Assembly: GCA_016186945.1 (NCBI GenBank)
Contig: JACPKR010000072.1
Location: forward strand, 20,662-84,661
DNA from: Deltaproteobacteria bacterium
Lineage (GTDB): Bacteria > Bdellovibrionota_B > Oligoflexia > Oligoflexales > Bog-1112
Reading direction: 5' to 3'
DNA length: 64,000 nt
Shown piece by piece: positions 17,441 to 18,738 of this stretch. Both the position numbers and the translations under genes were made by a program. The notes beneath the pieces were generated by a model. That model ran no database searches. It was not told the DNA's origin and saw only the letters and a program-made list of their open reading frames with translations. Positions within the stretch are counted from its first letter, which is position 1. Each line of letters starts with the position of its first letter.

Positions 17441-17548
17441 TTACGTGACGTTTAGTCGTAAACTTAGAAGTGAAATGATATTCCCTTTGGGCTTGCTGAT
17501 GATCACCTTCAATCAAAAATACAAAAATAATAGCGACTTAGCGTCTGT

Positions 17549-17618
17549 GAGCCGAATATCCACAGTATTCGGCTCAGAATATCTGTATTTTTGAGCCGAA
17601 TAGGGTTACAATCGGCTC
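17549..17618. promoter_or_regulatory. two GAGCCGA palindromes upstream of fic, probable tandem operators
   Basis: Site 1 is GAGCCGAATA-7-TATTCGGCTC (17549-17575), perfect over 10 bp. Site 2 is GAGCCGA-12-TCGGCTC (17593-17618), perfect over 7 bp. The four half-sites share one sequence and end 20 bases before the fic start. A TACAAT at 17607-17612 inside site 2 could be a -10 element. Operator function is inferred. Confidence 0.6.
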
Positions 17619-17637
17619 AACAAGAAAAAGGGCGGCA

Positions 17638-18738
17638 ATGACGTACATATGGGAGAGAGATGATTGGCCGGAATTCAGGTGGGACTCTACATTAGTAGAA
17701 AAGCAGGTTTATGCTTATGTGAAGGAAGCGAGTTCTTTAATTGGTCAGGCTTCTCTTTTCACGAGTGAAAGAACAACAGAAGCGTTGGTCGATCTGATGG
17801 TCTCGGAGGCTGTTAAAACCTCTCAAATAGAAGGAGAGTTTTTCAGCAGGAAAGATGTACGGTCGTCCATACTCAATCAATTGGGAATTAGAAAGACGAT
17901 TGAACGCGTGCGTGATCCTGGCGCAGAAGGAGTTGCATCTCTTATGATTGCTGTTCGAGATCAATTTCGGGAGCCTTTGACGGAACAACGATTATTCGAG
18001 TGGCATAGTTTGCTTATGTCAAGACCCATTGATAGAAAGCGCTTAGCTGTTGGGAAATGGAGGACATCAACGAAGTCCATGCGGATTATTTCGGGACCTA
18101 TGGGTCGGAAAAAGGTCCACTATGAAGCACCGCCATCGCATCGGGTGCCGCGGGAGATGGAAACATTCATAGGCTGGTTTAACGAAAGTAAGGACTTGAA
18201 AGGCCCTATACGAGCTGGAGTCGCCCACCTTTATTTTGAATGCATCCATCCCTTCGATGATGGTAATGGACGCATTGGACGTGCCTTATCTGAGACGGCT
18301 TTGTCTCAAGATTTAGGTTCCCCCGTGCTCCTTAGTCTATCCACAACGATCCAAGCACACCGGCGGAGTTATTATGATGAACTGTCTAAGGCAAGTCGAG
18401 GGGATCTCGATATTACCGAGTGGCTGGTCTGGTTTACCCAAGTGATCTTGGACTCACAGTTGCAGGCTAAGGGACAGATTGAATTTGTTCTCAAGAAGGC
18501 TCGTTTTTGGGATCATCATGCTGAGCATATCAATAAGAGACAGGTCAAAGTGTTGCAAAGGATGTTCAAGGAGGGACCAAAGGGATTCTCTGGTGGCATC
18601 ACCGCGCAAAAATATATGAAAATTGCCGCTTGCTCAAAAGCCACCGCTACGCGCGACTTAAGCGATTTGAATACAAAAGGCTGTTTGAAAAGACTTGCAA
18701 GCGGTGGTCGAAGTACGCATTATGAAATTAATCTATAG
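17638..18738 (+). CDS. Fic-domain protein (class II-type) with DUF4172 N-terminus and wHTH-like C-terminus
   Basis: This 366-residue protein starts with a DUF4172 segment (YIWERDDWPEFRWD). A class II inhibitory-helix motif (S/T)xxxE(G/N) follows as TSQIEG at 61-66. The Fic core is HPFDDGNGR at 204-212 with catalytic His204 and the ATP-binding Arg212. Fic proteins usually transfer AMP from ATP to hydroxyl side chains of target proteins and are held inactive by the inhibitory glutamate. The last ~80 residues (KVLQRMFKEG...KATATRDLSDL) read as a winged helix-turn-helix, common in this subfamily. All key residues are intact. The ATG has AAGGG upstream. Paired palindromes lie just before the gene. 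Its TAG stop coincides with the left end of a dispersed repeat. Confidence 0.92.
   Translation: MTYIWERDDWPEFRWDSTLVEKQVYAYVKEASSLIGQASLFTSERTTEALVDLMVSEAVKTSQIEGEFFSRKDVRSSILNQLGIRKTIERVRDPGAEGVASLMIAVRDQFREPLTEQRLFEWHSLLMSRPIDRKRLAVGKWRTSTKSMRIISGPMGRKKVHYEAPPSHRVPREMETFIGWFNESKDLKGPIRAGVAHLYFECIHPFDDGNGRIGRALSETALSQDLGSPVLLSLSTTIQAHRRSYYDELSKASRGDLDITEWLVWFTQVILDSQLQAKGQIEFVLKKARFWDHHAEHINKRQVKVLQRMFKEGPKGFSGGITAQKYMKIAACSKATATRDLSDLNTKGCLKRLASGGRSTHYEINL

Follow-up and report, generated by a model that had tools for sequence, protein, structure and literature searches.

A CbFic2-like Fic protein that probably represses its own gene through an array of four half-sites

Background

CbFic2 of Coxiella burnetii is a DNA-binding (de)AMPylase that binds DNA through a C-terminal winged-helix domain; its stimulation and dimerisation by DNA are established, random DNA having been used and a native DNA site being unreported, and the specific site is named in that study as the missing piece for DNA-controlled (de)AMPylation (PMC10628234). 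Here we describe a relative of this enzyme that is encoded in a stretch of 64,000 nucleotides from a Deltaproteobacteria bacterium of the Bdellovibrionota_B (assembly GCA_016186945.1, contig JACPKR010000072.1, positions 20,662 to 84,661; "the window" in what follows), and whose fic gene is preceded by two inverted repeats (dyads) of two half-sites each. We consider it highly probable that this gene encodes a CbFic2-like class II Fic AMP-transferase which acts as its own transcriptional repressor through the four-half-site array.

The window protein shares with CbFic2 full-length homology (E 6e-90), the domain order DUF4172, Fic and winged helix-turn-helix (wHTH), the Fic motif HPFDDGNGRIGR and an N-terminal inhibitory glutamate. 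CbFic2, however, has been studied as a suspected host-directed effector, whereas no sign of secretion was seen for the window protein, no test aimed at it having been made. Self-repression as such is already known from CccR of Yersinia pseudotuberculosis, a class II Fic protein that is delivered by type VI secretion and whose C-terminal helix-turn-helix (HTH) binds palindromes in its own promoter (PMC9755527). The palindromic array over the putative promoter of the window gene, with half-sites that covary with the recognition helix, recalls CccR. However, the CccR footprint (AGATAATCAT-N26-ATGATAATCT) has other letters than the TGAGCCGAATA array of the window with its gaps of 9, 15 and 8 bp, and it is a single divergent pair, the long spacer of which is close to that of the inner pair in the 23–28 bp class described below; a four-site array was not reported for CccR. 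A third group, the Sofic proteins, cause abortive infection as an anti-phage defence, according to the parts of PMC12249575 considered here. These also combine Fic with a C-terminal domain, and the PADLOC SoFic profile matches residues 20–362 of the window protein (E 1.5e-47), but the latter scores far below the NCBIfam SoFic cut-off (57.7 bits vs 550), and transcriptional self-regulation is not described in those parts of the Sofic report. A tetra-half-site operator, spacing in helical-turn steps and a residue-to-base code were not found in the open-licence papers that were searched. New are the arrangement of the operator, the code that relates residue to base, and a candidate for the cognate operator of enzymes of the CbFic2 type.

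The fic gene and its array

Judged by its sequence, the window protein is a class II Fic protein of the CbFic2-like DUF4172-Fic-wHTH type. It matches the profiles for DUF4172 (PF13776, 86.8 bits vs a cut-off of 25, E 1e-24) and Fic (PF02661, 63 bits vs 24, E 5e-17), and both class II patterns, HxFx(D/E)GN(G/K)R and the N-terminal (S/T)xxxE(G/N), are present. The inhibitory glutamate motif was originally predicted to be intact, and this holds: residues 61–66 read TSQIEG, with I64, E65 and G66 invariant in 49 relatives, as is H204 of the Fic motif in the alignment with relatives. The closest solved protein is CbFic2 itself (PDB 8cil, residues 3–365, E 6e-90). An AlphaFold2 model built from 49 sequences has a pLDDT of 92 overall and includes a confidently modelled C-terminal winged helix, with helices at 300–310, 323–330 and 334–346 (the recognition helix) and wing strands at 350–353 and 361–364; a Foldseek search with the whole model ranked 8cil first (TM 0.88–0.92). 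The wHTH fold proposed from the sequence is therefore supported both by the model and by its match to the crystal structure of a DNA-binding Fic protein.

Direct reading and a repeat search bear out a further part of the original prediction, namely that four identical GAGCCGA half-sites in two dyads lie less than 90 bases from the Fic start: the dyads bear four TGAGCCGA half-sites no more than 90 bp upstream of the ATG at 17638 (Table 1). The consensus stands to the extent that GAGCCGA is exact in all four, whereas half-site 4 departs from the others beyond this core. Only 5 copies of GAGCCGA occur in the window (vs 7.2 expected), and 4 of these lie inside 70 bp. When scored as a four-half-site array, the fic promoter reaches 57 out of 60, the best other separate place in the 64 kb reaching 40, and the dyad pattern is found twice in the whole 2.66-Mb genome, both times at the fic promoter, while the reversed pattern is absent.

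Conservation and geometry

Orthologues were drawn from species-representative genomes, from samples of the window's phylum, the Alphaproteobacteria and the Gammaproteobacteria, and from further samples of the phyla of one Cytophagia locus and one Acidobacteria locus. Among the 159 with enough upstream DNA, 107 (67%), from many phyla, carry an array scoring at least 42, the applied threshold, vs none of 953 equally long control segments from inside or behind the same genes (control maximum 41). The dyads expected in front of other DUF4172-Fic genes are thus present in most orthologues, and in many of those below the threshold one dyad, or three of the half-sites, can still be seen by eye. As a negative control, Fic genes lacking membership of the DUF4172 subfamily were taken, but the set proved impure, since two of them (L024 and L029) have their own repeated CGTTACTTA-like half-site upstream; self-repression may therefore extend beyond the DUF4172-Fic subfamily. 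Within the window's family, two orthologues (L004 and L008) look broken by stops or a frame break; the genome of L008 retains both dyads (TGAGCCGATTA), L004 being without an array.

With 10-bp words starting TG as the measure, the gap within a dyad is 9 bp (8–10) nearly everywhere, which puts about 19 bp between half-site centres. From dyad to dyad, the gap is 5 bp in 7 loci, 15–16 bp in 62, 23–28 bp in 36 and 45 bp once, with a best-fitting period of 10.0–10.5 bp (R 0.88). Spacing class largely tracks half-site type, TGA going with 15–16 or 5 bp and TGC with 23–28 bp, and the classes hence represent few evolutionary events, not 106 independent ones, yet no class is out of phase. Because the gap within the dyad is fixed and that between dyads changes in steps of a helical turn, each dyad is probably the site of one dimer, and the two dimers would need to lie on the same face of the DNA. 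The dyad, with half-site centres 19 bp apart, also fits the finding that dimerisation of CbFic2 is induced by 20-bp but not by 10-bp DNA (PMC10628234).

A recognition code

Half-site letters vary between clades (TGAGCCGAAT, TGAGCGATAG, TGAGYTATAG, TGATCGATAG, TGAGGCGATT, TGCGGAGAAT, TGCGTAGATT, TGGCGTGATT and others), and as far as sequences can tell they change together with the recognition helix of the protein itself. In a mutual-information analysis over all protein columns, K334 ranks first for the half-site core and A335 for base 3. Residue 335 gives base 3 correctly in 98 of 98 proteins: alanine (58/58), proline (3/3), serine (2/2) and glutamate (2/2) go with A (65/65 together), aspartate with C (30/30) and arginine with G (3/3).

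The mutual-information ranking is confounded by clades, and a tree test was therefore added, in which branches of half-site-core change were compared with those of residue change on a tree from residues 1–297 only, that is without the winged helix. Core changes share branches with changes at residues 323 (p 4e-6), 334 (p 7e-6), 333 (p 3e-4), 335 and 338 (both p 3e-3), all five of which are in the best nine columns; as branch length does not enter into these p-values, it is safer to compare regions within the protein, residues 332–340 averaging a -log10 p of 2.0 vs 0.6–1.1 elsewhere. In the wing, residues 357 and 359 show a correlation with bases 8 and 10 of the half-site, but it involves few independent branches, and we draw no claim from it.

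A held-out set was provided by eleven second copies, from genomes with two such genes, which were fetched after the rule had been set. All nine with a readable array and helix, read by eye, obey the residue-335 rule; for example, L253 from the gammaproteobacterial sample has the same pair as the window, SKATATR and TGAGCCGAAT, and L256 has SHDTALR with TGCGTAGA. Where a genome has two copies, their half-sites mostly differ (G315, G370, G352, G257, G696, G082 and G014; not so in G258 and G394).

These results bear on the possibility that the dyads serve some other regulator as its operator, the winged helix of the Fic protein serving only to tether the enzyme to DNA or to regulate catalysis. 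CbFic2 does bind random DNA with nanomolar affinity (PMC10628234), and there are a few arrays away from fic genes, both of which would suit such an arrangement. It is nevertheless very unlikely, as the half-site letters track the Fic protein's own recognition helix, and do so in the held-out paralogues too, as well as on the tree from residues 1–297; paralogues in one genome have different half-sites that match their own helices (e.g., G315, G370, G257 and G696); and no neighbouring gene family recurs in more than 5 loci.

Promoter and mode of repression

A proposed -10 element lies inside dyad 2. Relatives have TATAAT-like sequences at the same place (tgaTATAAT in L035, tggTATGAT in L034, tgtTACAAT in L037), some of the near ones, such as L035, being better matches. 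The overlap with half-site 4 would explain why this half-site departs from the other three. In most members with 15–16 bp spacing the last half-site directly adjoins the ATG (TATCGCTC-ATG; 49 of 68 have it at -9), and here the -10 commonly abuts half-site 3; the last half-site of the window is 19 bp higher. In either class, the array would cover the core promoter.

Where the last half-site meets the ATG, as in L068, L046 and L064, the leader forms a stable hairpin that has a purine-rich ribosome site in its loop (z -3.2 to -4.6), and these clades may have an additional layer of control at translation. Such hairpins are what would be expected if the dyads acted in RNA, by hiding the ribosome site and start codon in the 5' leader or as an attenuator. 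Control by an RNA hairpin was dismissed for the window: from half-site 4 onward its leader is unstructured (z +0.5), and there is no terminator-like site in the fic upstream region. Moreover, the proposed -10 is inside dyad 2, so that the dyads would not be transcribed as a unit, and the helical-turn steps of the gap between dyads and the covariation with the HTH point to DNA. We thus give an RNA function an even smaller chance than that of a separate regulator.

On the array, its conservation, its geometry, the fold and the covariation of half-sites with the recognition helix, we favour a process in which the protein, like CccR, very probably binds to the promoter of its gene and is its own repressor, and the autorepression through the dyads that was originally predicted gains support from the arrays before orthologues and from letters that covary with the presumed regulator's own helix. 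Each convergent dyad of two 10-bp half-sites would hold one homodimer, whose two winged helices would read the two half-sites. Two such dimers would be neighbours on one face of the DNA, with dyad centres about 44 bp, or four helical turns, apart in the window and a turn closer together or farther apart in other clades. They would cover the -10 region of the fic promoter and exclude RNA polymerase once enough protein has been made. Binding, repression and the assignment of one dimer to each dyad are what we infer from these features.

By analogy with CbFic2, the DNA-bound dimer may be deAMPylating or quiet and the free monomer AMPylating, and it is on this analogy that the originally predicted AMP-transferase switch would rest; by analogy with Sofic the output may be toxic or anti-phage. 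A bolder version, which we regard as rather unlikely, is that the operator is also an allosteric ligand, the four-site array keeping paired dimers deAMPylating or quiet, and that loss of the operator, when host DNA is destroyed or shut down in phage infection or a plasmid is lost, would free AMPylating protein. If this were true, one gene would serve as both toxin and repressor, with its promoter DNA supplying the antidote.

Site-to-gene specificity

In a dyad scan of 28 genomes, matches were mainly at the fic gene, with none for the reversed pattern. A degenerate dyad in 247 genomes of the Acidobacteria phylum gave 13 matches, 8 of them at a fic gene (vs two control matches); four of the other five look like chance, and the fifth is L228. 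For TGCGGWGAWT dyads in 274 gammaproteobacterial genomes, 10 of 16 matches were at a fic gene, the control giving none. The wider regulon for which a genome scan had been proposed was mostly not found, the dyads being almost confined to the fic promoter, although a few orphan arrays exist elsewhere, which could be remnants or a small number of targets in trans.

That the array is a repeat of a mobile element, a recombination or insertion site travelling with fic genes, is extremely unlikely. Orphan arrays beside genes that are elsewhere downstream of fic (L243 and L248) and, in one genome, a second copy of the array some 100 bp past the gene (L132, at 2825) could be read in this way, but the position over promoter and start codon is conserved, the letters covary with the recognition helix, and no recombinase is common to more than a few loci.

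Several observations weigh against self-repression through a four-site array. About one third of the orthologues fall short of the strict four-site threshold, with one dyad or three half-sites in L033, L079 and L005, and no array by eye in L054 or in the broken L004. Residues 88–100, outside the HTH, also correlate with half-sites, as clade markers would. Site and gene do not always go together, as clear arrays without a fic gene occur at L228, L241, L243, L248, L249 and L251. Finally, the promoter assignment is weak, a strict sigma-70 scan having listed no plus-strand promoter at the proposed -10.

We still regard the window locus as belonging to a widespread Fic subfamily that is very probably self-repressing. 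Relatives of its protein are found on chromosomes of many phyla and on 428 plasmid records. The analysis suggests that self-repression through four half-sites is the ordinary control of widespread single-gene Fic proteins. The geometry and the amino-acid-to-base rule together propose a form of the specific DNA site for the whole CbFic2-type subfamily, turning the question of the native DNA target into a simple binding assay, and the clades would offer a set of orthogonal operator/repressor pairs made by nature, some of which occur together in a single genome.

Table 1. Features of the fic locus, in positions of the window
Feature	Position	Strand	Basis or remark
Dyad 1, TGAGCCGAATA-N7-TATTCGGCTCA	17548-17576		11-bp arms, perfect inverted repeat; direct reading and repeat search
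Half-site 1, TGAGCCGAATA, left arm of dyad 1	17548..17558	+	Direct reading and repeat search
Half-site 2, TGAGCCGAATA read on minus strand, right arm of dyad 1	17566..17576	-	Direct reading and repeat search
Dyad 2, TGAGCCGAATAGGGTTACAATCGGCTCA	17592-17619		Third half-site perfect, fourth TGAGCCGATT; direct reading and repeat search
Half-site 3, TGAGCCGAATA, left arm of dyad 2	17592..17602	+	Direct reading and repeat search
Proposed -10, TACAAT, inside dyad 2	17607..17612	+	Consensus match only; last bases belong to half-site 4
Half-site 4, TGAGCCGATTG read on minus strand, right arm of dyad 2	17609..17619	-	Deviation overlaps proposed -10
DUF4172-Fic protein with C-terminal winged helix, 366 aa	17638..18738	+	
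DUF4172 domain, residues 3-84	17644..17889	+	Helix 17-39 matches dimer helix of CbFic2 (PMC10628234)
N-terminal inhibitory motif TSQIEG, residues 61-66, glutamate 65	17818..17835	+	
Fic motif HPFDDGNGRIGR, residues 204-215	18247..18282	+	
Winged helix, residues 300-364	18535..18729	+	AlphaFold2 model and Foldseek match to 8cil
Putative specificity residues S333, K334, A335, T336, start of recognition helix	18634..18645	+	Tree coincidence and residue-335/base-3 rule

Neighbouring genes and orphan arrays

A type II toxin-antitoxin system with a separate antitoxin was rejected, as inhibitory helix and DNA-binding domain are in one polypeptide and there is no partner open reading frame (ORF): no AS1-like small antitoxin ORF was found behind the fic gene of the window, where 103 bp separate it from the next, convergent gene and no plus-strand ORF of at least 20 aa lies wholly in the gap. 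A phage origin of the gene was likewise dropped, a search of 50,697 phage records at 1e-30 having found no relative. On the other side, a divergent AAA_14/DUF4143 ATPase (17411 to 16272, minus strand) adjoins fic across a common intergenic region of 226 bp, and a related protein is also found beside fic in two Dadabacteria loci (L056 and L060).

Arrays of the TGATCGATAG type precede non-Fic genes in two cases, a clear array at about 1480–1530 of L228 before an unrelated gene for a 367-aa protein, and four half-sites at 2487–2560 of L133 before a gene for a Sel1-repeat-like protein. In L243 and L248, TGCGG-type arrays precede a small HTH-like gene that elsewhere lies directly downstream of fic (neighbours of L154, L160 and L161), so representing either lost fic genes or targets in trans. 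In L132, the stretch with the first dyad (1540–1568) recurs word for word at 2825–2853, behind fic, and a piece of another half-site accompanies it, which looks like the trace of a lost second gene copy.
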